Shown here: piece by piece, positions 8,688 to 36,743 of the stretch
Layout of the letters: every line of letters begins with the position of its first letter
How positions within the stretch are numbered: position 1 is the stretch's first letter
Notes under the pieces: model-generated
What the model saw: the letters and a program-made list of their open reading frames with translations, nothing else
Told to the model about the DNA's origin: nothing
Databases searched by the model: none
Made by a program: the position numbers and the translations under genes
From: Candidatus Rokuibacteriota bacterium
GTDB taxonomy: Bacteria; Methylomirabilota; Methylomirabilia; Rokubacteriales; CSP1-6
Reading direction: 5' to 3'
Assembly: GCA_016209635.1 (NCBI GenBank)
Contig: JACQWC010000151.1
Coordinates: 1-36,743, forward strand
DNA length: 36,743 nucleotides

Positions 8688-10824
8688 TCCGGGATCGGGC
8701 GAGCTGATCGCGCGCGCCCGCGGCGCCGAGCGGACGTGGGGCGTCTGCTACGTGTGCCCCTTCAACTGTCCGACCGAGGTCTTCACGCGGGATGGGCGCG
8801 TCGTCTACGTCCGCGGGAACCCAGAGGCGACGACGAAGGGCTCGAGGTGCGTGAAGGGCGAGGCGAGTACCCACCTCGCCTCGGACGAGACCCGGCTCAA
8901 GTATCCGCTGCGCCGGACGCGGTCGGGGGAGTACGAGCGGATCTCGTGGGACGCGGCCTTCGACCTGGTGGCGACCGAGCTCGGCCGCATCAAGGCGCGG
9001 TGGGGCCCGGAGGCGGTCGTCTACCTCTGGCACGTCGATCCCAACGGGATCTTCGCGCAGGTCTTCCTCCGCGACTGCTACGGGACGCCCAACTACTACG
9101 GGCACACCTCCGCCTGTGAGCAGGACCGCCGCCTCGCGGCGCTCACGGTCTTCGGCCACCCGTTCCCGGTCCACGACTACGAGCACGCCCGCCACGTGAT
9201 GCTCCTCGGCATCAACATGCTCGGCGCCAACCAGAACCTTTACGAGAGCCGGGGTCTCGTCGACGCCCTCGCGGCGGGCGCGCGCCTCGTCGTGGTGGAC
9301 CCGGCGCTCACGGCGACAGCGGCGAAGGCGCACGAGTGGGTCCCGATCGCCCCCGGCACCGACGGCGCGCTCCTCCTGGCCATGGCCCACACGATCGTCA
9401 CGGAGGGGCTCTACGACGAACCGTTCTGCCGCCGGTGGACTCACGGGTTCGAGGAGTTCTGCCGGCACGTGGTCGAGGGCGGGTACACGCCCGAGTGGGC
9501 CGAGACGATCACGACCGTCGAGGCGGGGCGGATCCGGCGGCTCGCGCGCGAGTTCGCCACCACCAAGCCCGCGCTGATGGAGACTTTCAAGGGGCTCGGC
9601 AACTACGCGAACGGCCTCGACGCCTCGCGGACGGTCTACATCCTGAACGCGCTCACGGGCCAGGTCGACGGACCCGGGAACCTGATCCTCAAGGACTGGG
9701 CGCCGCTCCAGCCGCCGGTGCGCGTCCCCAAGGAGCGCCGCGCGGCGATCGCGCGTCCGCCGCTCCACGTCGCGATGGGCTATCCGCTGGCCCCCGACCT
9801 CCCGACCCAGCTCCTCCCCGACGCGGTCCTCGAGGGCCGGCCCTACCCGGTCACGTGCATCTTCTTCCAGTGCACGAACCCCCTCATGAGCGAGCCGAAC
9901 ACGCGCCGCTACCGCGAGATGCTGCGCGCGCTCGAGTTCTCGGTCGCGATCGACACCTACATGAGCGAGACGGCGGCCGAGTGCGCGCTCGTCCTGCCCG
10001 AGGCCTCCTTCTACGAGCGCGCCGAGGTGCGCCAGGGCCTGGCGCTCTCCGCCGACGCGCTCCTCTGCACGCCGGCCCTGCCGCCCTTCTACGAGTCGAA
10101 GCCGCTCTACGACATCGTGCGGGGCGTCGCCGAGCGGATGGGGTTCGGCGATCTCTTCCGGTGGGAACGCTGGGAGGAGTGGGCCGGACGGGTCATCGCC
10201 GACCTGCCCGTCTCGCTCGACGAGCTCCGGCACCGCGGCTTCTGGCAGGGGCCGCTCGAGCACCGGAAGTTCGAGCGCCACCCGCTCCCGACGCCGTCGG
10301 GGAAGATCGAGCTGTACGCGGAGTCGTTCGCCAGGCACGGGTACGATCCGCTGCCCGGCTACCGCGACCGGAAGGTCATCCCGGACGCCGAGTACCCGTT
10401 CCAGCTCATCAACACGAAGCTCGAGACCCACTGCAACCTCACGACGCAGGAGAGCCCGCTGCTCCTCCGGATCGCCCCGGAGAACTGGGCGGAGCTGAAC
10501 ACGGAGGACGCGAGGGCCCTCGGGATCGAGGATGGCGACAGGATCGAGCTCGTCTCGCCCCTGGACCGAGTGGTGATCACGGCCCGGGTGCGGCCGGGGA
10601 TCCGACCCGGCGTCGTCTGCGTCCGCCACGGTCACGGCTTCGGCCACTGGCAGGGCCGGAGCCGCGGGCGCGGCGCCCACGTGAACCCCCTCATCGGGAC
10701 GAACGTGAACCCGATCTCCGGCGGGATCGGCTACAACGAGTGCAAGGTCCGCGTCACGAAGCTCGCCCGAGCAGAGGGCGGCGGACGGGCGGCGGCGAAG
10801 CCCCTTCAGGTGACTCCGAGGTAG
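8671..10824 (+). CDS. Molybdopterin oxidoreductase (DMSO reductase family catalytic subunit)
   Basis: This 717-residue protein has an N-terminal 4Fe-4S motif (Cys26-x2-Cys29-x3-Cys33, Cys60 in RCVKG) followed by the molybdopterin domains. The C-terminal dinucleotide-binding domain covers about residues 570-700. Cys149 in GHTSACEQDRR is the likely molybdenum ligand, as in polysulfide/thiosulfate reductase-like members. There is no twin-arginine signal, so the enzyme should be cytoplasmic. No iron-sulfur or membrane partner subunit is encoded nearby. The TTG start at 8671 overlaps the DUF35 gene and is the only reasonable start before the cysteine motif. It is probably the redox or hydration step of the CoA pathway; substrate unknown. 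Its 3' end overlaps the convergent livF. Confidence 0.9.
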   Translation: MSPRTDPGSGELIARARGAERTWGVCYVCPFNCPTEVFTRDGRVVYVRGNPEATTKGSRCVKGEASTHLASDETRLKYPLRRTRSGEYERISWDAAFDLVATELGRIKARWGPEAVVYLWHVDPNGIFAQVFLRDCYGTPNYYGHTSACEQDRRLAALTVFGHPFPVHDYEHARHVMLLGINMLGANQNLYESRGLVDALAAGARLVVVDPALTATAAKAHEWVPIAPGTDGALLLAMAHTIVTEGLYDEPFCRRWTHGFEEFCRHVVEGGYTPEWAETITTVEAGRIRRLAREFATTKPALMETFKGLGNYANGLDASRTVYILNALTGQVDGPGNLILKDWAPLQPPVRVPKERRAAIARPPLHVAMGYPLAPDLPTQLLPDAVLEGRPYPVTCIFFQCTNPLMSEPNTRRYREMLRALEFSVAIDTYMSETAAECALVLPEASFYERAEVRQGLALSADALLCTPALPPFYESKPLYDIVRGVAERMGFGDLFRWERWEEWAGRVIADLPVSLDELRHRGFWQGPLEHRKFERHPLPTPSGKIELYAESFARHGYDPLPGYRDRKVIPDAEYPFQLINTKLETHCNLTTQESPLLLRIAPENWAELNTEDARALGIEDGDRIELVSPLDRVVITARVRPGIRPGVVCVRHGHGFGHWQGRSRGRGAHVNPLIGTNVNPISGGIGYNECKVRVTKLARAEGGGRAAAKPLQVTPR

Positions 10825-23417: not shown

Positions 23418-23442
23418 CGGGGGGAAATCTAAAATATATTCT
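23414..23442 (+). promoter_or_regulatory. Candidate promoter of the corrinoid methyl-transfer cluster
   Basis: TTGACG (23414-23419) overlaps the end of the ligase gene and is followed by an AT-rich island in otherwise GC-rich DNA. Possible -10 boxes are TATATT (23435-23440, spacing 15) or TATTCT (23437-23442, spacing 17). The leader to the ATG at 23460 would be very short. No good ribosome site lies between, so leaderless or weak initiation is possible. Confidence 0.5.
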
Positions 23443-23453
23443 TTATATATTCA

Positions 23454-23470
23454 TCGGGTATGATACCCGA
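23454..23470. promoter_or_regulatory. Perfect 17-bp palindrome over a start codon (GntR operator candidate)
   Basis: TCGGGTAT-G-ATACCCGA has 8-base arms around one central base and contains the ATG at 23460. It contains a GT-ATGAT-AC core that fits the (N)yGT(N)xACy(N) pattern of GntR-family operators, and a GntR/FCD regulator lies downstream in the same cluster. Either a repressor site just after the promoter or an mRNA hairpin covering the start codon would lower expression. Confidence 0.55.
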
Positions 23471-24077
23471 GGAGTTCGTCCCGAGCGGAATCCGTCTGAG
23501 ACTGGGGCCGATCCTCCGCTTCCAGCGCTACCGGAGCGTGGAGGCGGTCGCGCCCCCGATCCTGGAGGTTGCCCAGGAGATGACGACCCTCGCCGAGAAG
23601 CTCGTCGATCCGCGCGTCGTCTGGCTCCGGCGCCCGATCGCGAGGGTGGGCGGCGACAGCCTCACCCTCGAGAACGGCCCGACCTTCGGGGGCCGCTGCT
23701 TCTCGACCCACCTCGCCATGGCGGGGGAGGCGGTGTGCTTCGTCGCCACCATCGGCCCGGCCCTCGACGCGCGCGCGGCGGAGCTGACCGACGGGAACGA
23801 TCTCCTCGAGGCCCTCTTCCTCGACACGGCGGGGTGGCTCGCCATCGAGGAGACGCTCCGGGTCTTCCGCGCCCGTCTGCGGGCGCGCGTCCGGGGTGAG
23901 GGGCTGCGTCTGAGCCCGCGCCTCGGTCCCGGATACCTCGACTGGCCGCTCGGCGAGCAGGCGTCGTTCTTCCCGCTCTTCGACGGGACGCCGCTGCCGG
24001 TGGGGCTCAGCGAGTACTGCGTCATGACGCCGAAGAAGTCGATCTCGGGGCTCTTCGGACTCACCCCGGCCGGCTAG
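23460..24077 (+). CDS. Stand-alone MetH reactivation-domain-like protein
   Basis: This 205-residue protein resembles the C-terminal SAM-binding reactivation domain of cobalamin-dependent methionine synthase (MetH). RLSPRLGPGY (150-159) matches the Arg-Pro-Gly-Tyr motif that binds SAM in MetH, and LSEYCVMTPKKSISG (183-197) matches the LTES-x-MxP-x-SVSG segment. It would help return oxidised Co(II) corrinoid to the active form, probably on the separate corrinoid proteins encoded downstream. The start codon lies inside the palindrome described separately and has no good ribosome site. No other domain is attached. Confidence 0.85.
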   Translation: MIPEEFVPSGIRLRLGPILRFQRYRSVEAVAPPILEVAQEMTTLAEKLVDPRVVWLRRPIARVGGDSLTLENGPTFGGRCFSTHLAMAGEAVCFVATIGPALDARAAELTDGNDLLEALFLDTAGWLAIEETLRVFRARLRARVRGEGLRLSPRLGPGYLDWPLGEQASFFPLFDGTPLPVGLSEYCVMTPKKSISGLFGLTPAG

Positions 24078-24086
24078 GAGAGGACG

Positions 24087-25670
24087 ATGGAGGCGCCGCG
24101 CCACTCGAACGAGCTCCGACGACGACTCTCCGGCGGCGAGTGGGTCGTGTCGATCGAGTTCGTCACCCCCGAGGCGTCCGAGGAGTTCGAGGGCGCCATC
24201 GCGCCGATCGTGGCGCTGGGCGAGCGGAGCAAGGGCGACCCGCGGATCCACACGATCGCGCTGACCGACCGCGTGAAGTCCGATGACGACCACGACCCCG
24301 TGCGCGTCGCCCGGCGCGTCGCGGAGGCGTCGGGGAAGGCGCCGACGGTGCACCTCTCGGGCAAGGACCGGGATCCCGCGTGGCTCGCCGACGCGCTCGG
24401 GCGGATGCGGGAGGCCGGCCTCGAGAACCTGCTCCTGATCACCGGCGACAAGGTGAAGAGTCCAGGAAGCCACGGGCGCGTCCGCTACCACGACTCGGTC
24501 AACATGATCGCGCAGGCCCGCGCCGCGAGCCCCGCGTTCCACATCGCCGCGGCGGTCTCGCCCTTCAAGTACCGCGAGGAAGACCTCCTGAACCAGTATC
24601 TGAAGATGGTGAAGAAGGAGCGGGCCGGGGCCGGTTGCTTCATCACCCAGGTCGGCTGGGACATGCTCAAGTGGAAGGAGCTCCTCGCGTACCGGCGCCG
24701 GCGCGGCCTCCGGGCGCCGGTCATGGCCGGGCTCATGCTGCTGACCGTCGCGCGCGCCCGCTTCATCCGGGCGAACCGGCTCGCCGGGATCACGATCACC
24801 GACGAGCTCCAGGCCCGGCTCGAGGCCGACGCGACGCTCGCCGACAAGGGTCTGGGGGCCGCCTACCGGCGGCTCGCGCTCCAGATCGTCGGGCTCAAGC
24901 GGCTCGGCTATGCCGGGTTCCAGCTCACGGGCATGCACCAGTTCGAGAAGGTCGACGGGCTGCTCCGGCAGGCGGAGGACCTCGAGCGCCAGCTCCCCAC
25001 GGAGTCGGCCTGGTGGGAAGCGTGGTGGGAGGCGCTCCGGGGCCCCGAGGGCCGCCCGATCGCGACCGCGCCCGCCCGACCCTTCTATCTCTTCCGCGAG
25101 CACGCCGAGCCCGGCGGCGCGAGCGTCGCCCTCGACCGACTGACGCCGCGCGCGCTCGACCCGGACGCCACCCCGCGCGCCGAGCTGCGGACGTTCCGGG
25201 CGCTCGATGGGCTGGACCGCGCGGTGTTCCGCGAGGGCTCGCCGGGGAACGTGGTCCTCGGGCCGATCTCCCGACTGGTCCCTCGCGGGTCGGTCCTCGA
25301 TCGCGGGCTCCACTGGCTCGAGCGGCAGGTCAAGGCGCCCCTGGTCGGGTGCGAGACGTGCGGCTTCTGCCGACTCCCGTACACGATGTACGTCTGCCCC
25401 GAGACGTGCCCGAAGGGGCTCGCCAACGGCCCCTGCGGCGGCACGAGCGAGAACACGTGCGAGTTCGGCGACCGCGAGTGCGTCCACAACCGGAAGTACC
25501 GCGTGGCGAAGGCGACCGGGCGGCTCGACGAGCTGGAGACGGTGCTGATTCCCGTGGTAGGCTCCACCAAGCGCCACACATGCTCCTGGACCAGCCATTT
25601 CCGCGGAGAGGATCCGCCCGTCGTCAACCTCCTCCCCATTCGCCCGAAGGGACTCCAGCATGACCATTGA
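24087..25670 (+). CDS. metF: Methylenetetrahydrofolate reductase with C-terminal MTHFR_C domain
   Basis: This 527-residue protein has a MetF-type flavin TIM barrel (about 1-310). It keeps Glu24 in VVSIEF, at the place of the catalytic Glu, and Asp121 in LITGD. The C-terminal part (about 415-505) is the MTHFR_C type cysteine-rich domain, with Cys422, 425, 428, 437, 441, 450, 458, 465 and 499. In acetogens this part is similar to the separate metal-binding partner MetV. It interconverts methyl- and methylene-tetrahydrofolate. In this cluster it likely oxidises methyl-THF made by the next gene, or works in reverse. GGAGAGGA precedes the ATG, and the 3' end overlaps the next gene by 11 bases. Confidence 0.9.
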   Translation: MEAPRHSNELRRRLSGGEWVVSIEFVTPEASEEFEGAIAPIVALGERSKGDPRIHTIALTDRVKSDDDHDPVRVARRVAEASGKAPTVHLSGKDRDPAWLADALGRMREAGLENLLLITGDKVKSPGSHGRVRYHDSVNMIAQARAASPAFHIAAAVSPFKYREEDLLNQYLKMVKKERAGAGCFITQVGWDMLKWKELLAYRRRRGLRAPVMAGLMLLTVARARFIRANRLAGITITDELQARLEADATLADKGLGAAYRRLALQIVGLKRLGYAGFQLTGMHQFEKVDGLLRQAEDLERQLPTESAWWEAWWEALRGPEGRPIATAPARPFYLFREHAEPGGASVALDRLTPRALDPDATPRAELRTFRALDGLDRAVFREGSPGNVVLGPISRLVPRGSVLDRGLHWLERQVKAPLVGCETCGFCRLPYTMYVCPETCPKGLANGPCGGTSENTCEFGDRECVHNRKYRVAKATGRLDELETVLIPVVGSTKRHTCSWTSHFRGEDPPVVNLLPIRPKGLQHDH

Positions 25671-26640
25671 GCATCAGGGACTGATCGTCATCGGCGAGAA
25701 CCTGAACGCGACCCGGAAGATCAAGGGCTCGAGCCCCCGGATCCTCAAGGAGGACGGCCGGCGCGGCCTCCCCTATACGGACCTCTCGGGGACCAAGCGG
25801 GTCCTCGACCTCACCGCGGCCTTCCCCGAGGACCCCAAGGAGCACGCGAACGCGATGATCCCGTACGTCGCGCAGTGCTTCCGCGACAAGGACCTGCGCT
25901 ACCTCGAGTGGCAGGTGCACTCGCAGCTCAAGGCCGGCGCCCACATCATCGACCTCTGCGTCGACGAGATGTCCCCGTACCCCGAGGAGCGGATGGAGTG
26001 GATACGCTGGGTCGTCAAGGCCGTCCAGGCGATGACCGGCGCCATCCTCAGCATCGATTCGTCCGACCCGCTGACGATCGAGGCGGGCCTCAAGGTCCAC
26101 GACGGGAAGAAGAGCCGGCCGTTCATCAACTCGGTGAACCTCGAGGAGGGGCGGAGCGTGCTCCACGCGGTGGCCAAGGAGCACGGCGCGTACCTGGCCG
26201 GTAACGCGTCCGGGCGGTCCGGGATGCCGTACAGCGCGCAGGAGCGCGTCGACAATCTGGTCGAGCTGTCCAAGCAGATGGACGCGCACGGGATCCCGAT
26301 GGAGGACCGGTTCCTCGACGCGCTCGTCTTCCCCGTCGGCGCCGGGCCCGAGTACGGCATGCACTACCTCGACGCCGTCAGGCACCTGCGCGAGATGTTC
26401 CCCGAGGTGCACCTCTTCGGCGGCCACTCGAACGTCTCGTTCGGACTCCCGAACCGCAAGGTGCTGAACGACGCGTTCATCATCCTGTCGATCCTGGCCG
26501 GCTGCGACACGGTCATGGCCGATCCCCTGATGAACCCGCCGCGCGAGTACCTCGAGTTCAGGCTCGCCGCGGAGGCGCTCACCGGGAAGGACGATTACTC
26601 GATGAACTACCTCGCCTACCACCGGAGCCAGCAGGCGTAG
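25660..26640 (+). CDS. Methyltetrahydrofolate:corrinoid methyltransferase (pterin-binding, AcsE/MetH-like)
   Basis: This 326-residue pterin-binding TIM barrel moves a methyl group between a corrinoid protein and tetrahydrofolate (methyltransferase 2). Signatures are GENLNATRK (12-20), HIIDLCVDEM (95-104), LSIDSSDP (130-137), PFINSVN (154-160) and GGHSNVSFGLPNR (254-266), where the Ser-Asn segment contacts the pterin in MetH and AcsE. It corresponds to the second module of MetH. It overlaps metF by 11 bases, so the two are coupled. A dihydropteroate synthase is unlikely because of the SNVSFGLP motif and the context. Confidence 0.93.
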   Translation: MTIEHQGLIVIGENLNATRKIKGSSPRILKEDGRRGLPYTDLSGTKRVLDLTAAFPEDPKEHANAMIPYVAQCFRDKDLRYLEWQVHSQLKAGAHIIDLCVDEMSPYPEERMEWIRWVVKAVQAMTGAILSIDSSDPLTIEAGLKVHDGKKSRPFINSVNLEEGRSVLHAVAKEHGAYLAGNASGRSGMPYSAQERVDNLVELSKQMDAHGIPMEDRFLDALVFPVGAGPEYGMHYLDAVRHLREMFPEVHLFGGHSNVSFGLPNRKVLNDAFIILSILAGCDTVMADPLMNPPREYLEFRLAAEALTGKDDYSMNYLAYHRSQQA

Positions 26641-26643
26641 CGC

Positions 26644-27633
26644 ATGCTATACTCGACCGCCATGACGGGCCTGCTCGAGCGCTTGTCGACGCGCACGCCG
26701 CTGCTCACGGACAGCGCGACCGGCACGTGGTTCCAGCAGCGCCTCGGCGTCCAGCACGTCGGCGGCGAGTGCTGCGACCAGTACAACCTGACGCAGCCCG
26801 ACGTCGTCCGCGAGCTGTACCGCGCCAAGGTGGATGCGGGCGCGGATCTCGTCCTCACCAACACCTTCAACAGCACGCCGCTCCGTCTCCGCGAGTTCGA
26901 CCTCGAGGACGAGGCGGATCGGTTCAACGACGCGGGCGTGCGGCTCCTCCGCGAGGTCGTGGCCGAGTCCGGGCGCGAGGTCTTCGTCGGCGGGAACGTC
27001 GGACCCACGGGGAAGCTCGTGGGGCAGTCGGCGACCTACGACGAGGTGATGGACTCCGTGCTCCGCCAGGTCCGGGCGCTGGTGCGCGCCGGCGTCGACG
27101 CGATCTGCGTCGAGACCATGCTCCAGTCGCTCGAGGGGCAGATCGCGGTCGAGGCGGCGCGTCAGGTCTTCGCCGACGAGGGCGTGTCGGTGCCGCTCTA
27201 CGTGACGTTCGCCTTCATGAATCGGCCGGCGGCCAGCACGGCCGAGTTCCGGACCTTCTTCGGGGACACGGTGCGCCAGATCATGGAGGGGAACGAGGAC
27301 CTCCTGGCCGAGCGCCCGTTCGTCGGCGTCCGGCAGCTCGGCGTGGACGTGGTCGGCGCCAACTGCACGATCGGCGTCGACGACGCGGTGGCCGTGACCG
27401 AGGAGTTCACCCGCTACCTCGTCGCCCACGGCCTCGCGGGCCGCATGTGGGTGTCCGCCAAGCCGAACTCGCAGGTGATGGCCACGATGCAGTACGAGGA
27501 ACCCGAGTTCGTCGCCGCCAGGTTCGCGCGCTTCGTCGAGGCGGGCGCGCACTTCGTCGGGTACTGCTGCGGCTCGACGCCCGCGCACATCGCGGCGACG
27601 GCGCGCCAGCGGCGGGCCCTGCTCGGCTTCTAG
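26644..27633 (+). CDS. Homocysteine S-methyltransferase-type protein (MetH module 1-like)
   Basis: This 329-residue barrel belongs to the homocysteine methyltransferase family. Zinc ligands are all present: Cys241 in VGANC and Cys308-Cys309 in GYCCGSTP. The N-terminus LLTDSATGTWFQQ and GECCDQYNLTQPDVV also fit the family. It corresponds to the first module of MetH and would move a corrinoid methyl group onto homocysteine or a related thiol. The ATG at 26644 is used; the ATG at 26662 (MTGLLERL) is an equal alternative, with neither having a good ribosome site. No B12 or pterin domain is attached. Confidence 0.9.
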   Translation: MLYSTAMTGLLERLSTRTPLLTDSATGTWFQQRLGVQHVGGECCDQYNLTQPDVVRELYRAKVDAGADLVLTNTFNSTPLRLREFDLEDEADRFNDAGVRLLREVVAESGREVFVGGNVGPTGKLVGQSATYDEVMDSVLRQVRALVRAGVDAICVETMLQSLEGQIAVEAARQVFADEGVSVPLYVTFAFMNRPAASTAEFRTFFGDTVRQIMEGNEDLLAERPFVGVRQLGVDVVGANCTIGVDDAVAVTEEFTRYLVAHGLAGRMWVSAKPNSQVMATMQYEEPEFVAARFARFVEAGAHFVGYCCGSTPAHIAATARQRRALLGF

Positions 27634-27669
27634 GACGGCTCACCATGGCTCCCAGGGCGGGGGAGGTGT

Positions 27670-27706
27670 GGGCGCCGTCGAGATATATTGATAATATACG
27701 GGCGCC
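27670..27706 (+). repeat. AT-rich inverted repeat flanked by GGGCGCC repeats (internal promoter candidate)
   Basis: TATATT-GAT-AATATA (27684-27698) is a perfect inverted repeat with a 3-base spacer. It is flanked by two copies of GGGCGCC (27670-27676 and 27700-27706), each holding the palindrome GGCGCC. GATAAT (27690-27695) could serve as a -10 box, but no good -35 box lies upstream. The element sits in the 97-base gap before the UroD-type gene and may be an internal promoter or operator. Confidence 0.45.
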
Positions 27707-27730
27707 GGAGAGTACCGGGGGGAGAGGACA

Positions 27731-28900
27731 ATGAACGAGCTCAGGCCTCGCGAACGGTTCGCGCGCGCCATCCGGCGCGAGAAGGTCGACCGCGTGCCGA
27801 CGCTGTACCGCTTCAAGCGCGAGTCCAAGGAGAAGGCGGCCCGCGTCTTCGGGATCACCGACGCCGAGGTCGGCCTCAAGCACGCGCCGCACCTCGAGCT
27901 CAGGCTCGGGAACGACGCCATCATGTACCAGATCGGCATCAACGCCGAGTTCTCGCACCACCCGATCGCGATCGGCGAGACCTGGTACAGCGACTTCAAG
28001 GTCGCGTACGGCAAGAGCGGTCTCAAGGGCCTGTCGGAGGAGGAGCACAGGGAGTTCATGAAGACCCAGGAGTACTGGGGACCGGCCAAGGTGGTCCCCG
28101 AGAACTTCCCGAAGGCCCACCCCATCGGCTCGATGGAGGACCTCAAGAACTACACGTGGCCGAGCCCGGCGAACCCGCGGCTCCTCGACCCGATCAAGGA
28201 GATCTGCCGGCACTACCAGGACGACTACTTCATCATGGTCGATCTCTCCTCCACCCTGATCGAGGCGGCGTACGCGCACCTCGTCGGGACCCAGAACTTC
28301 TTCCTGTTCCTCTACGACGAGCCGGAGCTGGTCCGGGGCGTGCTGGACGGGCTCACCGAGTACTACTGCGCGCTCGGGAGGAACGTCGCCGCCCTCGGCG
28401 TCGACATGATCCGGGTCGGCGACGACATCGGCGCCCAGCAGGGGATGATGCTCGACCCCGAGGTGTGGCGGGAGCTGGCCAAGCCCCGCTTCCAGTACAT
28501 GTTCGAGCAGTTCCGGAAGGTCAACCGGGACGTCTACCTCAAGCTCCACTCGTGCGGCGACTACTCACCGATCATTCCCGACGAGATCGACCTCGGGGTG
28601 AATCTCTCCGGGCTCATGCAGCCGGTCGGCGGCAACCGGAACCAGACGGAGATCAAGAAGAAGTACGGCGACAAGATCGCCTTCATCGGCGGTCTCGACG
28701 TGCAGCGGCTCCTGCCCCGCGGCCAGGTCGAGGAGGTGCGGGCGGGGGTGCTGAACGTCATGAAGAATCTGGCCGTGGGCGGTGGCTACATCTTCTCGCC
28801 GTCGCACTACATCCTGGCCGACGTCCCCGTCCAGAACATCTGGGCGATGATCGAGGCGGTGAAGGATTTCGGCGTGTACGGCAAGTATCCGCTGAACTAG
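27731..28900 (+). CDS. UroD-family methyltransferase, module 1
   Basis: This 389-residue protein belongs to the uroporphyrinogen decarboxylase-like superfamily that includes methyltransferases MtaA/MtbA and O-demethylase methyltransferases. The zinc motif His273-x-Cys275 (KLHSCGDYSP) is present. The later Cys ligand of MtaA/MtbA is absent; the site reads SPSH (356-359). It should transfer a methyl group between a small substrate and the corrinoid protein encoded next. The ATG follows GGGGAGAGGA. Because true UroD lacks the HxC motif, a heme role is unlikely. The substrate (methoxy-aromatic, methylamine, methylthiol or other) cannot be told. Confidence 0.88.
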   Translation: MNELRPRERFARAIRREKVDRVPTLYRFKRESKEKAARVFGITDAEVGLKHAPHLELRLGNDAIMYQIGINAEFSHHPIAIGETWYSDFKVAYGKSGLKGLSEEEHREFMKTQEYWGPAKVVPENFPKAHPIGSMEDLKNYTWPSPANPRLLDPIKEICRHYQDDYFIMVDLSSTLIEAAYAHLVGTQNFFLFLYDEPELVRGVLDGLTEYYCALGRNVAALGVDMIRVGDDIGAQQGMMLDPEVWRELAKPRFQYMFEQFRKVNRDVYLKLHSCGDYSPIIPDEIDLGVNLSGLMQPVGGNRNQTEIKKKYGDKIAFIGGLDVQRLLPRGQVEEVRAGVLNVMKNLAVGGGYIFSPSHYILADVPVQNIWAMIEAVKDFGVYGKYPLN

Positions 28901-28914
28901 AGGGAGAGCGTCGT

Positions 28915-29625
28915 ATGTCCAACGGGCCGAGTCTTCAGATGCCCGACGGCTGGCAGACGCGCGTGCCGCCAGGATGGGACTGGAGCGAGCTCTGGGTCGC
29001 AGTCGAGAAGGGCAAGCACAAGGTCGCCCACGAGATCGTGCAGAAGGCGATCGACACCGGCATCAACCCCAAGACGATTCTCGACGACGGTCTCTTCCCC
29101 GGGTTCAATCTCCAGGGCGAGCGGTTCAGCGAGCAGATCATCTTCATCCCCGAGATGCTGATCACGGCGCGGGCGATGAAGGCAGGGCTCGCCCTCATCC
29201 GCCCCCTCCTCGCCGCGCAGGCGGAGAAGCCGGTGGGCACCTTCGTGATCGGCACCGTGCTCGGCGACATGCACGACATCGGCCAGTCGATCGTGACGAT
29301 CATGCTCGAGAACGCCGGCTTCAAGGTCCTGAACCTCGGGACCGACACCCACCCCGACAAGTTCATCAACACCGCGCGCGCCGAGAAGGCCGACCTCGTG
29401 GGGTTCTCGGCGCTGCTCTCGACGACCATCTACTACCAGAAGGTGACCATCGAGGAGTTCGTCAAGGCGGGGCTGCGGAACAAGGTGAAGATCCTGGTCG
29501 GCGGCGCGCCCACGAGCCAGCAGTGGGCGGATGAGATCGGCGCCGACGGCTGGGGCAAGGACGCGATGCTCGCCGTGCAGCTCGCGAAGAAGCTCGTCAA
29601 CGAGCCTCGCGAGCCCTGGGACTGA
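28915..29625 (+). CDS. Corrinoid protein, module 1 (MtaC/MtbC/MetH B12 type)
   Basis: This 236-residue methyl-carrier has the helical cap (about 25-100, with FIPEMLITARAMKAG) and the Rossmann B12 domain with Asp118-x-His120-x2-Gly123 (GDMHDIG), where His120 is the lower cobalt ligand. SALLST (165-170) and GGAPTS (196-201) are further B12-binding loops. It starts 14 bases after the UroD-type gene with a good AGGGAGAG ribosome site. The N-terminal 25 residues are longer than in MtaC. It is the third module of a split MetH-like system or the carrier of a methyltransferase system. Confidence 0.95.
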   Translation: MSNGPSLQMPDGWQTRVPPGWDWSELWVAVEKGKHKVAHEIVQKAIDTGINPKTILDDGLFPGFNLQGERFSEQIIFIPEMLITARAMKAGLALIRPLLAAQAEKPVGTFVIGTVLGDMHDIGQSIVTIMLENAGFKVLNLGTDTHPDKFINTARAEKADLVGFSALLSTTIYYQKVTIEEFVKAGLRNKVKILVGGAPTSQQWADEIGADGWGKDAMLAVQLAKKLVNEPREPWD

Positions 29626-29628
29626 ACC

Positions 29629-30012
29629 ATGGACTTCATCCCCATCGCCCGAGTCGACGAGGTTCCCACCGGCGCGACGCGCCTCTTCGGGACCGACGGC
29701 GTGCGCGTTCTCCTGGCGCGCGTCGGCGACACCGTCCACGCCCTCCAGCCGACCTGCCCGCATCGCGGCTGCGACTGGGACGGGGCCGCGGTGCAGGACG
29801 AGATCATCACGTGTCCGCGCTGTCGCTTCCGCTACTCGGCGCGGACGGGACTGAACCCCCTCACGACCGCGTGCCACGTGAACCAGTCGACGGCGGAGTA
29901 CCACTATCGGAACTTCCCGGAGGGCCGCGCCGATCTCCACGCGGTGCGGCTCCGCGACGGGCGGGTCGAGGTGTCGGCCACGCCGCTGCCGTTCAGGAAA
30001 GTGATCGTCTGA
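29629..30012 (+). CDS. Rieske-like 2Fe-2S ferredoxin with C-x-H / C-x2-C ligands
   Basis: This 127-residue protein has the Rieske fold layout but an altered second ligand box. Box 1 is CPHRG (Cys43, His45). Box 2 is CPRC (Cys62, Cys65) where Rieske proteins have CPxH, so the expected ligand set is three Cys and one His, as in mitoNEET. The codon at Cys65 is TGT, so a simple misread of CAT would need two changes. The start lies three bases after the corrinoid gene, and the stop overlaps the activating-protein start (TGATG). It is a likely electron carrier for corrinoid reduction; a dioxygenase ferredoxin is less likely here. Confidence 0.85.
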   Translation: MDFIPIARVDEVPTGATRLFGTDGVRVLLARVGDTVHALQPTCPHRGCDWDGAAVQDEIITCPRCRFRYSARTGLNPLTTACHVNQSTAEYHYRNFPEGRADLHAVRLRDGRVEVSATPLPFRKVIV

Positions 30013-31901
30013 TGCCGGCGACGGTGGCGGTGACGTTCGAGCCCGAAGGGCGGACGATTCGTGTCGCCCCCGGGGAGACCTTCCTGCGCGCCGCCCAGGA
30101 CGCGGGAATCGACGTCATGGCCACCTGCGGGGGCCGCGGCCGATGCCACAGCTGCCGGATCAAGATCCTGAAGGGGACGGTGGCGCCGCCGACGATCATG
30201 GACACCGTGCAGCTCGGTCACGAGGAGGTCCGCGAGGGCTTCCGGCTGTCCTGCCAGACCCCCGTCGTCGAGGCCTGCGCGGTGATGGTCATGCCGCCGA
30301 TCGCGGAGGGAGGGCATCAGATCCTCTCGTGCGCCCACGACTTCCGCGCCGACTCGCGGGTCGGGCTCGACTCCGGGGTGGAGAAGCGGTTCGTCAAGGC
30401 CCGGCTGCCAGCGGAGGAGCACCACCAGACGTCGGACGTCGAGGAGACGCTCGCGGCGCTCGGCGGTGGGGCTGGCGAGGACGTCCCCCTCGACGTCCTG
30501 CGCCGGATCCCGACGCTGCTCCGGGAGGCCGACGGCGCCGTGACCGTCACGACCTTCCGGGGGAAGGTCATCGACGTCGAGTCGGAGGACACCTCGGCGC
30601 ACAAGTACGGGATGGCGTTCGACATCGGGACGACCAGCATCGTCGGGTTCCTGATGGACCTCGACACCGGCGAGCAGCTCGCCGCCGTGGGGAACCTGAA
30701 CCCCCAGGCGGTGTACGGCGGCGACCTCATGTCGCGCATCGCCTTCGCCCAGTTCAACCCGGAAGCCCTCAAGAAGCTCCAGGTCCGCGTGCTCGCCGCG
30801 ATCAACGCCCACGTCAAGGAGGCGTGCGACCAGGCGGGGGTCTCGCCCGCGCAGATCTACAAGGTGGTCATCGTCGGCAACACCTGCATGCACCACGTCT
30901 TCCTCGGGATCGACCCGACGCACGTCGGCCTGGCGCCCTACGCGCCCACGGTGCGATCCCCCATCGTCCTCCCGGCCAAGGAGCTCCACCTCCGCGTGAA
31001 CCCGAACGCGGCGGTCTGCTTCCTGCCCATCGTGGCTGGCTTCGTCGGCGCCGACACCATGGGCGTCATCCTCGCGACGCGCATCTACGACAGCCCCGAC
31101 ATCCGCGTGGCGGTCGATATCGGGACCAACGGCGAGGTCGTGATGGGCTCGCGCCGCCGGCTCATGGCGTGCTCCGCGCCCGCCGGCCCGGCCCTCGAGG
31201 GGGCGCAGATCAGGCACGGGATGCGGGGTGCCATGGGCGCGATCGAGAAGGTCGAGATCGGCGGCGACGTCGTCTGCTCGGTGATCGGCGCCGTCCCGCC
31301 GGTCGGGATCTGTGGCTCCGGGCTCATCGACGCCATCGCGAAGATGCTCGACGCGAAGGTGCTCGACTCGTCGGGCCTCCTCCGGGTGGAGGAGCGGGAT
31401 CTCCTGCCCTCCGCCATCCGCGACCGGCTGATCGAGCGCGACGGCGAACGGCAGTTCGTGCTCGTGTGGGCGCCCGAGTCCGGGAAGGGCGAGGACATCA
31501 CGATCACCCAGCAGGACGTCCGGCAGCTCCAGCTGGCCAAGGGCGCGATCTACTCCGGCATCCTCATGCTGGAGCAGGTGATGGGCGTGACGAACGGGCA
31601 GATCACGGAGCTGATGCTCGCCGGCGGCTTCGGGAACTACATCAACATCGCGAGCGCGGTCCGGATCCACCTCCTGCCCGAGCTGCCCGTGGAGCGGATC
31701 ACCTACGTCGGAAACGCCGCGGGCCTCGGGGCCCAGATGGCGCTCCTGAGCGAGACCGAGCGGGAGCGGGCGACCGCGCTGGCGCGCACGATCGAGCACG
31801 TCTCGCTCGCGGCCCGGCCGGACTTCCAGGACGTTTTCGTCGGGGCGATCTGCTTCCCCGGCGACGAGGCGGCCGGTCTCCTGCTCTCGGGAGCGGAGTG
31901 A
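30012..31901 (+). CDS. ATP-dependent corrinoid-activating protein (RACE family)
   Basis: This 629-residue protein has an N-terminal plant-type 2Fe-2S domain (Cys39-x5-Cys45-x2-Cys48, Cys81) and a C-terminal ASKHA ATPase part: FDIGTTSIVGFLMD near 205 and DIGTNGEVVMG near 370. Such RACE proteins use ATP to reduce inactive Co(II) corrinoid proteins to Co(I). It sits just after the Rieske-like ferredoxin and the corrinoid protein, which fits an electron chain to cobalt. The ATG at 30012 overlaps the previous stop by one base. It is unlike the archaeal RamA, which carries 4Fe-4S clusters. Confidence 0.93.
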   Translation: MPATVAVTFEPEGRTIRVAPGETFLRAAQDAGIDVMATCGGRGRCHSCRIKILKGTVAPPTIMDTVQLGHEEVREGFRLSCQTPVVEACAVMVMPPIAEGGHQILSCAHDFRADSRVGLDSGVEKRFVKARLPAEEHHQTSDVEETLAALGGGAGEDVPLDVLRRIPTLLREADGAVTVTTFRGKVIDVESEDTSAHKYGMAFDIGTTSIVGFLMDLDTGEQLAAVGNLNPQAVYGGDLMSRIAFAQFNPEALKKLQVRVLAAINAHVKEACDQAGVSPAQIYKVVIVGNTCMHHVFLGIDPTHVGLAPYAPTVRSPIVLPAKELHLRVNPNAAVCFLPIVAGFVGADTMGVILATRIYDSPDIRVAVDIGTNGEVVMGSRRRLMACSAPAGPALEGAQIRHGMRGAMGAIEKVEIGGDVVCSVIGAVPPVGICGSGLIDAIAKMLDAKVLDSSGLLRVEERDLLPSAIRDRLIERDGERQFVLVWAPESGKGEDITITQQDVRQLQLAKGAIYSGILMLEQVMGVTNGQITELMLAGGFGNYINIASAVRIHLLPELPVERITYVGNAAGLGAQMALLSETERERATALARTIEHVSLAARPDFQDVFVGAICFPGDEAAGLLLSGAE

Positions 31902-31902
31902 C

Positions 31903-32811
31903 GTGCGCGTCAACGTGATCTGCGGTTTCCTCGGCTCCGGCAAGACGACGCTCGTGCGCCGCATCCTCGGCGGCCGGGCCGGGAAGGAGCGGCTCGCGGT
32001 CATCGTCAACGAGTTCGGCGATGTCGGGATCGACGGGGAGATCTTGCAAGGACACGCGATCGACATGATCGAGCTGAGCGCCGGGTGCCTCTGCTGCACG
32101 CTCAAGGGATCTCTCGTGACCGCCGTCGAGGAGCTGCGCGACAAGGCGGGCGTCGAGCGGATCGTGATCGAGGCGACGGGCGTGGCTCAGCCCGGCGAGC
32201 TGGTGGAGGTGCTCGCGGACCCCGCGATCCGTGACTCCGTCGCGCTGGGTCCGCTGGTGACGGTGGTCGACGCGCCGAAGTTCCCCGCGCTCCGGAAGGT
32301 GCTGGGCGAGTTCTACACGGCGCAGGTGACGCGGGCCGGGGTGCTGCTGCTCAACAAGACCGATCTCGCGACGCCAGGCCAGCTCGACGGGGTGCGGCGC
32401 GAGGTGACGGCGCTGAACCCGCGGGCGACCGTGGTCGCGACGGAACGGTGTGACGTGGAGCTCGACATGGTGCTGGAAGGGGGTAGCCGGGCGCCAGAAC
32501 CGAGCGCGCTCGAGCAGGGGCTGGCGTCGCCGGCTCCGGCGGCGTCGTTCACGTCGTTCGTGGCGACGACGAGCTTCGACGCCGACCGGGCGAAGGTGAT
32601 TCGCTTCTTCGCCGGTCTGCCGGACGCCGTGGTCCGGGCGAAGGGCTTCATGACGATCGACGGCCAGCCGGCGCTGGTGCAGTACGCCGTCGGGCAGCTC
32701 GAGATCACGGGGGCGCCGAGCCCGCGCGCCATGAACCTGGTGTTCATCCTCAACGGCGACGGGGACCAGGCCGGCCTCAAGGCCCGCCTGAGCGAAACCG
32801 CACGCCCATGA
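31903..32811 (+). CDS. CobW/COG0523 GTPase metallochaperone
   Basis: This 302-residue GTPase shows Walker A GFLGSGKTT (8-16), the metal-binding CLCC (62-65), a Glu-Ala-Thr-Gly switch segment at 90-93 and the G4 motif NKTD (151-154). COG0523 proteins insert or deliver metals such as Zn, Co or Ni. In this place it could supply Zn to the methyltransferases or Co to corrinoids. The GTG start is two bases after the activating-protein stop, and the stop overlaps the regulator start. Confidence 0.9.
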   Translation: MRVNVICGFLGSGKTTLVRRILGGRAGKERLAVIVNEFGDVGIDGEILQGHAIDMIELSAGCLCCTLKGSLVTAVEELRDKAGVERIVIEATGVAQPGELVEVLADPAIRDSVALGPLVTVVDAPKFPALRKVLGEFYTAQVTRAGVLLLNKTDLATPGQLDGVRREVTALNPRATVVATERCDVELDMVLEGGSRAPEPSALEQGLASPAPAASFTSFVATTSFDADRAKVIRFFAGLPDAVVRAKGFMTIDGQPALVQYAVGQLEITGAPSPRAMNLVFILNGDGDQAGLKARLSETARP

Positions 32812-33452
32812 AGAGCAAGGCCCACGCGTCGCTGACGGAGAAGGCCTACCACACGCTGGTGCACAAGATCGTCACGCTCGATCTGGCGCCGGGCTCCGTC
32901 CTCACGGAGAGCCGGCTGATGAACGAGCTCAAGATCGGCCGGACACCGATCCGGGAGGCGGTCCAGCGGCTGATCGCCGAGGGACTGGTCAAGCACCTCC
33001 ACCACCGGGGGATGCTCGTCGAGGAGATCCGGGCGGCCGATGTCCAGCAGCTCTACGAGTTCCGCGCCGAGATCGAGGGGTACGCCGCCCGATTGGCGGC
33101 GATGCGCATGACGCCGGCGCAGGTCGAGGAGCTGCAGCGGATCCACGCGGGTATGGACCGCGCGCTGGCGGAGTCCGATATCGAGAGCTTCACCACCCAG
33201 GACCGCCAGTTCCACGAGCTCCTCGGGCATGGCTCCCAGAACGGCTACGTCCAGTCCGTCCTGGCGAACCTCTACAACCTGCACCTGCGCCTCTGGTATT
33301 ACCTCTTCCAGCGTCGGGGCGGCCTCCAGGAGACCGTGCACGAACACCAGGAGCTGATCGCGGCGCTCGTGCGGCGGGATCCCGACGGCTCCGAGCAGGC
33401 GATGAAGAAGTACGTGTCCCGGCTCGCGCGCGAGATCAAAGGGATCCTCTAG
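32808..33452 (+). CDS. GntR family regulator, FCD/FadR subfamily
   Basis: This 214-residue regulator has an N-terminal winged helix (about 8-70, with SRLMNELKIGRTPIREAVQR as recognition region) and a C-terminal FCD ligand-binding domain with Asp132-x3-His136, His159 and His180 as probable metal ligands. FCD proteins usually sense small carboxylates or related metabolites. Its ATG overlaps the metallochaperone stop (ATGA). It is the only regulator of the corrinoid cluster in the window, and the palindrome at 23454-23470 is its best operator candidate. Confidence 0.9.
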   Translation: MKSKAHASLTEKAYHTLVHKIVTLDLAPGSVLTESRLMNELKIGRTPIREAVQRLIAEGLVKHLHHRGMLVEEIRAADVQQLYEFRAEIEGYAARLAAMRMTPAQVEELQRIHAGMDRALAESDIESFTTQDRQFHELLGHGSQNGYVQSVLANLYNLHLRLWYYLFQRRGGLQETVHEHQELIAALVRRDPDGSEQAMKKYVSRLAREIKGIL

Positions 33453-33470
33453 AGAACGACGGGGGAGGCG

Positions 33471-34691
33471 ATGGCGACGAAGAAGCTGACGGGGCGCGAG
33501 CGGGTGAGGATGGCGCTCAACCACCAGGAGCCCGACCAGGTGCCGATGGACATCTGGATCACGCAGGACTCCTACGTGGCGCTCCGGCGGGAGCTGGGGC
33601 TGCCCCCGAAGGTGTCGAAGCCCTGGGACTGGCAGAACACGCCCAATGCCATCCGGACGGGATCGACGACGTGGTCGACGGATGCGCCCGTCGACCTCGA
33701 CGTGATCGAGAAGCTCGACCTCGACATGGTCCGCGTGCCGAGCTACCCGCCGAACGGCGGGCGCGGGTTCGTCTACCGCCCGGAGGACGAGCTCTACCTC
33801 GACGAGTGGGGCGTGCCCCACCACCGCGCCGAGTTCGAGACCGGGTACGGCGGCGCGCACTTCGAGATCCGGATCTACCCGCTCGCAGAGGCGACGATCC
33901 AGGATCTCGAAGACTACCCCTGGCCGGACCCACGAGACCCCTCCTTCCTGGGGGACCTCCCCGAGCTGATCCCGCGGCTCCGCCGGGAGACGCCGTACGC
34001 GATCCTGTCGCAGTTCGGGCGGGGCGGGATCTACGAGCAGGCGAAGTACCTGCGCGGCTTCGAGCAGATCTTCATCGACATGGCGATCGACCAGGAGTTC
34101 GTGCACGCGCTGTTCGCCAAGCTCCTCGAGATCGAGCTCGAGATGAACCGCATCGGCATCCAGGCGGTCGGGAAGTACCTCGACGTCCTCCGGTTGTCGC
34201 CGGAGGACCTGGGGACGCAGACGAGCACGCTCGTGTCGCCGCAGATCCACGAGGAGCTGGTGCGGCCCTACTACAAGCGCCGCTTCCACGAGGTCCGGCA
34301 GATGCTCGACGCCGTCGGCAACCACGAGTGCAAGATCATGTACCACTCCTGCGGCGCCGCGTACCCGATGATGCCGGGGTTGATCGAGGACGGCATGCAG
34401 GTGTTCGATCCGCTCCAGCCGCTCGAGGTGATCTCCGAGCCGTGGCGGCTGAAGCGGGATTTCGGCGAGCGGATCTCGTTCGTTGGCGGCATCAACGTCC
34501 AGTCGACCCTGCCGCGCGGCACCGCCGAGGATGTGCGCGCGGAAGTCCGCCAGCGGATCAAGGAGATGGCGCAGGGCGGCGGCTACATCCTCTCCCCGGC
34601 GCACCGCATGCTGCCGGACATTCCGTTCCGCAACATCAAGGCGATGTACGAGGCGGGTCGGGAAAATGGCACCTACCCCATCAACCTGTGA
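33471..34691 (+). CDS. UroD-family methyltransferase, module 2
   Basis: This 406-residue protein is a second UroD-like methyltransferase. His292-x-Cys294 (YHSCG) is the zinc motif, and the third ligand is not Cys (SPAH, 375-378), as in module 1. The central and C-terminal parts (GGINVQSTLPRGTAEDV, 339-355) match module 1, but the N-terminal half differs, so substrates are likely different. It is followed directly by its own corrinoid protein. GGGGGAGG lies five bases before the ATG. Confidence 0.88.
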   Translation: MATKKLTGRERVRMALNHQEPDQVPMDIWITQDSYVALRRELGLPPKVSKPWDWQNTPNAIRTGSTTWSTDAPVDLDVIEKLDLDMVRVPSYPPNGGRGFVYRPEDELYLDEWGVPHHRAEFETGYGGAHFEIRIYPLAEATIQDLEDYPWPDPRDPSFLGDLPELIPRLRRETPYAILSQFGRGGIYEQAKYLRGFEQIFIDMAIDQEFVHALFAKLLEIELEMNRIGIQAVGKYLDVLRLSPEDLGTQTSTLVSPQIHEELVRPYYKRRFHEVRQMLDAVGNHECKIMYHSCGAAYPMMPGLIEDGMQVFDPLQPLEVISEPWRLKRDFGERISFVGGINVQSTLPRGTAEDVRAEVRQRIKEMAQGGGYILSPAHRMLPDIPFRNIKAMYEAGRENGTYPINL

Positions 34692-34699
34692 GTGAGTCC

Positions 34700-35368
34700 A
34701 TGGACGAGAGAACGCTGCTCGAAACGCTGGCTTTCACGGTCATCAAGGGTCGGGTCAAGGAGGGGACGGCGCTGACGGAGCAGGCGATCGCCGTGGGCGT
34801 CGACGCGCACCTCGTGATCAACGAGGGGCTCGTGCCGGGCATGGACGTGGTCGGTGAGCTGTTCCGGACGAACCAGTACTTCATCCCCGAGGTCCTGCTG
34901 TCGGCGCGGACCATGAACGGCTCGATGGCGCTCCTGAAGCCGCTCATCGTCGGCGCGGTGACGGAGACGGTCGGCGTCGCCGTCGTGGGCACGGTCAAGG
35001 GCGACATCCACGACATCGGCAAGAACCTCGTCTGCATGCTGCTCGAGGCGGCGCAGTTCAAGGTGCACAACCTCGGCGTGAACAACACGCCGGAGAAAAT
35101 TTTCGAGGCGGCCGAGCAGCACGGCGCCGACATCGTCGGCCTGTCCGCTCTGCTGTCGGTGACCATGCCCAACATCGGCAAGACCGTGGAGCACTTCGAG
35201 AAGATGGGCGTCCGGAAGAAGTACAAGATCATCTGCGGCGGCGCGCCCGTGACGCCGAAGTTCGCGCAGGAGTGCGGCACCGACGGTTACGGCGCCAACG
35301 CGCCGGAGGCCGTGCGGATCTGCCGCCAGTGGATCGAGGAGAAGCGCGCGGCGGCCGCGTCCGCGTAG
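34700..35368 (+). CDS. Corrinoid protein, module 2
   Basis: This 222-residue corrinoid protein has the helical cap (FIPEVLLSARTMNG, 61-74) and B12 domain with Asp102-x-His104-x2-Gly107 (GDIHDIG). SALLSV and GGAPVT follow as in module 1. The ATG at 34700 is used; an in-frame GTG at 34688 overlaps the preceding stop and is an alternative, as no ribosome site is clear for either. It should carry methyl groups for methyltransferase module 2, and both corrinoid proteins could share the same pterin methyltransferase and activating protein. Confidence 0.95.
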   Translation: MDERTLLETLAFTVIKGRVKEGTALTEQAIAVGVDAHLVINEGLVPGMDVVGELFRTNQYFIPEVLLSARTMNGSMALLKPLIVGAVTETVGVAVVGTVKGDIHDIGKNLVCMLLEAAQFKVHNLGVNNTPEKIFEAAEQHGADIVGLSALLSVTMPNIGKTVEHFEKMGVRKKYKIICGGAPVTPKFAQECGTDGYGANAPEAVRICRQWIEEKRAAAASA

Positions 35369-35395
35369 CCGCCGTGGCAACGAGAGGAGGGGCGC

Positions 35396-36743
35396 ATGGG
35401 GCAGAGTGACATCGAGATCGCGCGGGCGGCGCGCCTCCAGCCCGTCCAGGCCATCGCCGAGAGCCTGGGGCTCTCCGCCGAGGACATCGAGCCGTACGGC
35501 GCCCACAAGGCGAAGGTGCGACTCGACGCCCTCGAGCGGCTGCGCGACCGCCCGGACGGGGCGCTCGTGCTCGTCACGGCGATGACGCCGACGCCCGCGG
35601 GCGAGGGCAAGTCGACCACGACCGTCGGTCTCGGCGACGCGTTCCGACGGATCGGCAAGCGCGCGGCCGTGGCGATCCGGGAGCCGTCGCTGGGCCCGTG
35701 CTTCGGCGTGAAGGGCGGCGCCGCGGGCGGCGGGCACGCCCAGGTGGTGCCGATGGAGGACATCAACCTCCACTTCACCGGCGACCTCCACGCGGTCGGC
35801 GCCGCGCACAACCTGCTCGCCGCCGTCGTGGACAACCACCTCTTCCAGGGGAACGCGCGCGGCCTCGACTCGCGCCGGATCCACTGGAAGCGGGTGCTCG
35901 ACATGAACGACCGGGTGCTCCGCAGCATCGTGGTCGGGCTCGGCGGGCCGGCCAACGGCATCCCGCGCGAGTCGGGGTTCGAGATCACGGTGGCCTCCGA
36001 GATCATGGCGATCCTCTGCCTCGCCCGTGACCTCGCCGACCTCAAGGCGCGGATCGGGCGGGTGATCGTCGGCGAGACCGCGGACGGCACGTTCGTGACG
36101 GCGGGGGACCTCCGGGTCGCGGGCGCCCTCACCGTGCTCCTGAAGGACGCGATCAAGCCGAACCTGGTCCAGACGCTCGAGGGCGGCCCCGCCTTCGTCC
36201 ACTGCGGGCCGTACGGGAACATTGCCCACGGCTGCAACTCGATCCTCGCGACCCGGATGGCGCTGGCCCTGAGCGACCTCGTCCTCACGGAGGCCGGGTT
36301 CGGGAGCGATCTCGGCGCCGAGAAGTTCTTCAACATCAAGTGCCGGTTCGCGGGATTGACGCCGGAGGCGGCGGTGCTGGTGGCCAGCGTCCGCGCGCTG
36401 AAGCTCCACGGCGGCGCGTCCAAGGGCGACCTGGGACACGAAGATCTGCGATCGCTCGAGGCGGGCCTGCCGAACCTCGACAAGCACATCGAGAATCTCC
36501 AGCTGCACGGCGTCCCCGTCGTGGTGGCGGTGAACCGCTTCGCCACGGACACGGCGGCGGAGCTGGCGGCCGTGATCCGGCGCTGTGAGACCCAGGGCGT
36601 GCCCGCGGCGATCGCGGAAGTCTTCGACCGCGGGGGCGCGGGCGGTGAGGATCTCGGCCGCGTGCTGCTCGACACGTTACGGAGCCGCCGCGCGGACTTC
36701 CGTTACCTTTACGACATGGACCGCCCGATCCTCGAGAAGATCG
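35396..36743 (+). CDS. fhs: Formate-tetrahydrofolate ligase (partial, runs off the window)
   Basis: This ATP-dependent enzyme interconverts formate and 10-formyl-tetrahydrofolate. About 449 of roughly 557 residues are present; the 3' end is beyond the window. The ATP loop [10 protein letters not shown] is at 66-75, and the long conserved block at 94-129 (REPSLGP, then GGAAGGG, then NLHFTGD) is unmistakable. AGGAGG at 35385-35390 lies five bases before the ATG. In this cluster it may release formate with ATP gain when methyl groups are oxidised through folate, or load formate in the other direction. FolD, if present, should lie to the right. Confidence 0.95.

Follow-up and report, generated by a model that had tools for sequence, protein, structure and literature searches.

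A conserved corrinoid methyltransferase gene block with a homocysteine methyltransferase-like gene in Rokubacteria

Contig JACQWC010000151.1 of a Candidatus Rokuibacteriota bacterium (assembly GCA_016209635.1; genome G000 in our set) carries a block of 13 co-directional genes that runs from position 23460 to the contig end at position 36743. The window analyzed here is this whole contig (C108), 36,743 nucleotides in length. The intergenic gaps within the block range from -11 to +27 nucleotides, with the single exception of a 97-nucleotide gap ahead of the first UroD-type gene. In gene order, the predicted products and the matches on which they rest are as follows.

23460..24077, + strand: stand-alone S-adenosylmethionine (AdoMet)-type corrinoid reactivation protein, MetH activation-domain homologue (PDB 1J6R; RxxPGY)
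24087..25670, + strand: MetF with a MetV-like C-terminal domain (DUF5981/MTHFR_C; PF02219 2e-18, PF12225 3e-20)
25660..26640, + strand: methyl-corrinoid:tetrahydrofolate (THF) methyltransferase (MT2), AcsE-type, pterin-binding (PF00809; PRK07535 194 bits vs metH 90)
26644..27633, + strand: homocysteine S-methyltransferase-like protein (HMT), zinc Cys triad intact (PF02574, S-methyl_trans, 1.4e-46)
27731..28900, + strand: UroD1, UroD-type substrate:corrinoid methyltransferase (MT1), HxC...H site (PF01208 5.6e-31)
28915..29625, + strand: corrinoid protein 1, MtgC/MtbC type (PF02607, B12-binding_2, and PF02310, B12-binding; MtgC 184 bits vs metH 117)
29629..30012, + strand: Rieske-like ferredoxin, CPH...CPxC ligands (PF00355 7.8e-9; motif in three genomes)
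30012..31901, + strand: RACo/AcsV-type ATP-dependent corrinoid reductive activase (PDB 3zyy E=1e-110; NF040756 3e-131)
31903..32811, + strand: CobW/COG0523 family GTPase, metal or corrinoid chaperone (PF02492 7e-48)
32808..33452, + strand: GntR-family regulator, FCD subfamily (PF07729 3.6e-32, PF00392 1e-14)
33471..34691, + strand: UroD2, second UroD-type MT1, HxC...H site (PF01208 9.9e-21)
34700..35368, + strand: corrinoid protein 2 (PF02607 2.7e-19, PF02310 2.6e-26; MtgC 177 bits vs metH 141)
35396..36743, + strand: formate--tetrahydrofolate ligase (Fhs), incomplete at the contig end (NF010030 5.8e-214)

All 13 genes recur in identical order in AR19 (QHSZ01000025.1; G046), with 64-89% protein identity and with the third codon positions diverging most. 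This conserved order and codon-position pattern rule out chance open reading frames in DNA of 70% GC. Near-identical loci are present in two genomes named Candidatus Rokuibacteriota, and in AR8, whose contig of 5.7 kb stops at the Rieske-like gene, the order starting with MetF is likewise kept. In G094, which belongs to another family of the same order, MetF, the pterin methyltransferase, the homocysteine-type protein, a corrinoid protein, and an MtaA-like UroD protein lie in one row; the identities are 66-67% for the pterin methyltransferase and 60-62% for the homocysteine-type protein. The same gene set, which the preliminary description of this locus had proposed to seek in related genomes, is thus found in full order in AR19 and in part in AR8 and G094. 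That description had also placed two UroD-type methyltransferases, MetF-MTHFR_C, a corrinoid activator, and Fhs beside MetH-like modules on one strand; family profile and PDB matches, together with the order kept in AR19, bear out these gene calls, although the Rieske-like gene had been overlooked. The corrinoid protein 1 gene extends to position 29625. Among the 95 genomes of the phylum examined, just four (G000, G046, G064, and G094) encode homocysteine and pterin proteins belonging to this clade, and the block is therefore accessory. This distribution applies to the phylum; a GTDB scan relied on peptide patterns so strict that the G094 relative (62%) escaped it. In all four carriers the homocysteine-type gene adjoins the pterin methyltransferase gene, down to approximately 60% identity.

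The preliminary description had read the block as containing all four MetH modules as separate genes. Homologues of the homocysteine, pterin, B12, and activation modules are indeed present, but the corrinoid and pterin proteins neither derive from MetH nor score best against it. In the phylogeny, the two corrinoid proteins are set apart from the MetH B12 domains of Escherichia coli and of a Rokubacterium with support of 100/99. The best PDB matches of the pterin protein are 2yci and 4o0q, its closest solved relatives being AcsE and a protein deposited as a dihydropteroate synthase (DHPS; 4o0q). The reactivation protein matches PDB 1J6R, deposited as a methionine synthase, with E=4e-7 alone and 7.6e-17 as a profile, and it keeps the RxxPGY AdoMet signature. 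We take 1J6R to be the Thermotoga stand-alone activation-domain homologue TM0269. The reactivation protein has no Pfam match, a plasmid search with it returned no match, and a single-sequence structure prediction with a pLDDT of 40 was not used. This gene had been labeled the reactivation module. Several of its closest relatives in the phylum do not lie with MetH: some adjoin MtmB-corrinoid-RACo (G001) or corrinoid-RACo (G002) genes, and others have a corrinoid protein and a UroD of divergent sequence as neighbors (G065 and G089). Because these relatives sit in other corrinoid loci, the reactivation-like protein looks like a general corrinoid-maintenance protein in this phylum. With B12 proteins that group off MetH (100/99), an AcsE-like pterin protein (194 vs 90 bits), and reactivation relatives in catabolic loci, we reject the view that a MetH was cut into pieces; judged from these comparisons, the block is a split MetH by parts list, not by descent.

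The G001 row deserves a separate mention. An MtmB-family methyltransferase, a corrinoid protein, the activation-like protein, and RACo follow a FAD/GcvT fusion (L124 3501-10978), a row that probably serves methylamine or related N-methyl compounds and is of the same class as the block. The corrinoid-activation-RACo row recurs in G002 (L125).

In HMT, the residues D23, E157, C241, C308, and C309 are invariant in the alignment and correspond to the zinc and substrate positions of MetH and BHMT. HMT is approximately 31-32% identical to known homocysteine enzymes and has an inserted segment of its own. A row of RACo, corrinoid, UroD, UroD, HMT, and DUF1638 genes in G019 is an independent recurrence of HMT with UroD and corrinoid genes and lends support to a homocysteine tap in UroD systems. 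DUF1638 and a RamA-like protein are genetically required with the split methionine synthase of Phaeobacter (PMC5764234).

Both UroD1 and UroD2 have an HxC motif, and the position of the second Cys of S-methyltransferases is taken by His. The HxC...H site thus departs from the His-Cys-Cys pattern of S-type UroD enzymes (rule quoted in PMC10418091), and it is a fair guess that both enzymes use O-methyl donors. Substrate class was not read from the UroD tree, which is poorly resolved and includes no characterised MtvB. The single UroD of G094 is MtaA-like and has a His-Cys-Cys site, so the donor may differ between genomes while the MetF-MT2-HMT core stays. Elsewhere in the phylum, G006 and G007 (family f5) encode eleven and nine UroD-type methyltransferase-like genes, respectively, numbers that suggest a wide range of methylated substrates.

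Two AT-rich palindromes are found in the window.

23433..23451, no strand: inverted repeat AATATAT-TCTTT-ATATATT, 0 mismatches to AATATA-N7-TATATT; candidate GntR/FCD operator
27683..27698, no strand: second, related palindrome in the 97-nucleotide gap before UroD1, 0 mismatches to ATATAT-N5-ATATA

The first palindrome is separated from the first gene by 8 nucleotides, shares positions with a sigma-70-like promoter match, and is also present upstream of the AR19 reactivation gene. No other such site occurs in the window, where the chance expectation is 0.00 for the first and 0.03 for the second. AR19 showed only the first of the two, and neither turned up in AR8 or G094, whose contigs are short. 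As a protein that would bind these sites, the GntR/FCD regulator, itself encoded in the block, is the obvious candidate. With a related palindrome in front of each half, the methionine-like genes of the first half and the demethylase genes of the second are suggested to be under joint control; the parts thus appear to be coregulated rather than under the separate regulation that had been named as a point that would weaken the idea of a hub. Riboswitch control (cobalamin or SAM) was set aside, as the window has no Rfam match.

Taking these features together, we give slightly better than even chances to a catabolic corrinoid methyltransferase operon that works as a shared system, like MtgBCDE, with UroD-type donors. 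Two substrate-specific UroD enzymes would load methyl groups from methylated compounds onto the two corrinoid proteins, and the one pterin-binding MT2 would transfer them from corrinoid to THF. MetF-MetV, probably a methylene-THF reductase running in the oxidative direction in this block, and Fhs would oxidize the methyl group toward formate with a gain of ATP, FolD being assumed to lie elsewhere. The ATP-driven RACo and the AdoMet-driven stand-alone activation-domain protein would both restore oxidized corrinoid. HMT would tap the same methyl-corrinoid pool to form methionine, presumably fed by one of the two corrinoid proteins, and methyl-THF could be a further methyl source for HMT through a reversed MT2. 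We infer this direction of flux, in which the methyl groups are probably handed to folate and to methionine. A shared pool with a folate or a homocysteine exit had been proposed before; the pterin methyltransferase, MetF, and Fhs argue for the folate exit, and the homocysteine exit is plausible, given the zinc Cys residues, E157, and the gene adjacency. A natural methyl exchange hub of uncultured soil bacteria, in which two UroD demethylases act on different substrates and two corrinoid proteins are unloaded to folate for energy or to homocysteine for methionine and AdoMet, with AdoMet- and ATP-driven reactivators side by side, is a tentative proposal to which we give distinctly less than an even chance. 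If it is true, the catabolic carriers would themselves supply the AdoMet for their own repair.

Several observations weigh against a shared catabolic operon with a methionine branch. Two of the four carriers, G046 and G064, encode a full-length MetH with a PF02965 domain; because of this complete MetH, the block is dispensable for methionine there, and methionine need not come from it. G000 has no PF02965 protein and no ordinary MetH, but this absence is not proof because the assembly, 92.6% complete with 7.9% contamination, is broken into 270 contigs. It also encodes two further S-methyl_trans proteins, one of them beside a third corrinoid gene. The HMT clade (100% support) is long-branched, and the tree does not settle its placement relative to MetH, Bmt, and the core and other Rokubacteria HMTs. 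In addition, the third zinc ligand of the UroD proteins is His, not Cys, and zinc is not used by all UroD MT1s (PMC13222342). An ordinary MetH elsewhere, combined with another thiol as the substrate of HMT, had been named beforehand as what would weaken the hub idea; the former is present in half of the carriers and was not seen in G000.

The same MetH genes in two carriers also speak for pure catabolism, in which methyl groups go to folate only and the S-methyl_trans protein acts on another thiol or selenol, or demethylates S-methyl compounds onto corrinoid. The distance of the HMT clade from known homocysteine enzymes and its own inserted segment point the same way, as does the pairing of HMT in G094 with an MtaA-like UroD whose His-Cys-Cys site is the S-type pattern (PMC10418091). 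However, HMT keeps its zinc triad and the substrate-binding Glu and Asp positions. Homocysteine is, moreover, the commonest methyl acceptor of the S-methyl_trans family, and we regard a purely catabolic block as rather unlikely, although a serious contender.

Methionine synthesis fares worse. It cannot be the general purpose of the block because MetH is present in G046 and G064, where MetH and cluster coexist, and we find it improbable that the main job is methionine synthesis by a split MetH that replaces a lost one and receives additional methyl groups from the UroD proteins. What favors this possibility is that no full-length MetH was seen in G000 or G094. In G094, the MT2 of the block is the only pterin methyltransferase besides a DHPS-like protein, and the PF00809 proteins of G000 are likewise only one strong DHPS-like match and this MT2; in G000, the block could supply a missing folate-to-corrinoid step, subject to the caution that this genome is in 270 contigs. 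However, many relatives without MetH and without such a pterin enzyme must get methionine otherwise, the two MT1/corrinoid pairs, Fhs, and the GntR/FCD regulator look catabolic, and the cluster is patchy (4/95 genomes). A reductive operon, in which formate would be converted by Fhs and MetF to a methyl group that the UroD enzymes put onto acceptors, is very improbable. All steps are reversible in principle, and MetF normally works reductively; however, two MT1/corrinoid pairs with one MT2 fit many donors and one sink, and the known loci with a UroD-type MT1, a corrinoid protein, MT2, and RACo demethylate (PMC8630106, PMC3621897).

The favored operon with a folate and a methionine exit has close counterparts among known systems. 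In Ruegeria pomeroyi, mutants revealed that MtgC and MtgD serve both glycine betaine demethylation and methionine synthesis (PMC12478193), and MtgBCD with MtgE resembles the present block in its separate corrinoid, pterin, and homocysteine proteins, a RamA-type activase, and a MetF linked to the pterin gene. However, the Ruegeria donor MtgB is of the MttB family (PF06253), whereas the donors here are UroD-type, and the present operon combines the homocysteine gene with two MT1/corrinoid pairs and also encodes a reactivator of the AdoMet type. No PF06253 protein was found in G000, G046, G064, G094, or G019, with Methanosarcina acetivorans as a positive control, and we accordingly reject an MttB-type glycine betaine system for the carriers. 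The MtvABC/MtoABCD methoxy-aromatic O-demethylases of Moorella and Methermicoccus likewise combine a UroD-type MT1 and a small corrinoid protein with MT2 and an activase of the 2Fe-2S RACo type, and the Mto operon has all four parts in one locus, as here (PMC8630106). Acetogens and methanogens are the groups from which such UroD-type systems are known (PMC8630106). UroD1 and UroD2 are likened to these enzymes by gene set, not by placement in the MtvB/MtoB clade. The portion of that source available to us describes no homocysteine methyltransferase or AdoMet-type reactivator in those operons (PMC8630106).

The cmu genes of the aerobe Methylorubrum extorquens CM4 also combine a UroD-type corrinoid methyltransferase, a folate methyltransferase (CmuB), MetF2, and oxidation to formate (PMC3621897). 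Unlike the separate genes here, CmuA unites the UroD and corrinoid parts in one protein, to which UroD1 is approximately 25% identical over 62% of its length; PurU takes the place of Fhs, and the cmu cluster examined has no homocysteine gene. The split MetH of Phaeobacter inhibens (PMC5764234) has the homocysteine, pterin, and B12 modules as separate genes with RamA-like reactivation, but these genes are not all in one locus and have a biosynthetic role, with no UroD donors and no PF02965-type reactivator. Thermotoga 1J6R is, like the reactivation protein here, an activation-domain homologue as a separate small protein, whereas in the present block it stands in a catabolic corrinoid operon with RACo. 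Finally, the type 1 mlp gene cluster (methyl-S/Se; PMC10418091) has several MtaA-like UroD proteins (>25% identity), a His-Cys-Cys zinc site, and, in the clusters on record, no folate methyltransferase; UroD1 and UroD2 differ in their third ligand, His, and in the presence of MT2. The G094 UroD shares the His-Cys-Cys site with type 1 mlp, but its locus also has MT2.

The suggestion that a combined hub may be new is weakened by the genetic evidence for a shared corrinoid protein and pterin methyltransferase in Ruegeria pomeroyi (PMC12478193), and the hub idea itself has been published for Ruegeria with another donor family (Mausz 2025). New here are the UroD-type donors, the phylum, and an operon that encodes corrinoid reactivators of both the AdoMet and the ATP type. 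In the open-licence papers covered, which are weak evidence of absence, we found no UroD-type version with an embedded homocysteine gene and no such locus in Rokubacteria, and in a metagenome survey mentioning Rokubacteria, none of the 1,233 genomes was annotated with mtv, mto, or cmu genes (PMC11264602). If the favored reading is true, the link between demethylation and methionine known from marine Ruegeria also holds for another donor family and for a phylum of soil and subsurface bacteria that is uncultured, and Rokubacteria gain a corrinoid route for using methyl groups. With both reactivator types in one catabolic operon, it becomes testable whether a MetH-style activation domain serves catabolic corrinoid proteins.

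Other methionine-related genes were noted in the family. In G000, the third corrinoid gene is divided between two contig ends (C98 and C76) and adjoins another homocysteine methyltransferase, an HMT-MTHFR fusion lies on C95, and eleven proteins with the MetE C-terminal domain (PF01717; C184, C34, C16, C239, C162, C266, C150, C33, C270) are possible core methionine synthases or methylcobamide:thiol enzymes. All three Rokubacteria core operons read (G084, G039, and G046) have a corrinoid protein, a homocysteine methyltransferase, an activation-like protein, and an HMT/MTHFR fusion, and homologues with equally close spacing are found in most genomes of the family (L071 7220-11973, L072, and L073; G068, G072, G073, G080, G081, G083, G084, and G092). 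Several genomes that are >90% complete have neither MetH nor a pterin-binding protein except a single DHPS-like one, so that methyl groups would have to reach this corrinoid protein without a pterin module.

The Rieske-like ferredoxin, encoded directly ahead of RACo, may be its electron donor. A Cys replaces the usual second His ligand, giving a set of 3 Cys and 1 His (window 29629-30012; L017 12935-13315; L018 5478-5729). The CoA ligases and TRAP/ABC transporters upstream of the block were left out of the unit because, among the window genes tested, neither the two CoA ligases nor the TRAP genes are matched within the conserved AR19 block; one weak 29% ligase match lies outside it. The upstream region also encodes a molybdopterin oxidoreductase of 717 amino acids (8671-10824), for which the best NCBIfam scores were PhsA and then formate dehydrogenase alpha, both under the cut-off. 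A 71% homologue lies just upstream of the block in AR19 (L067 13433-15529), and this putative enzyme could serve formate oxidation.

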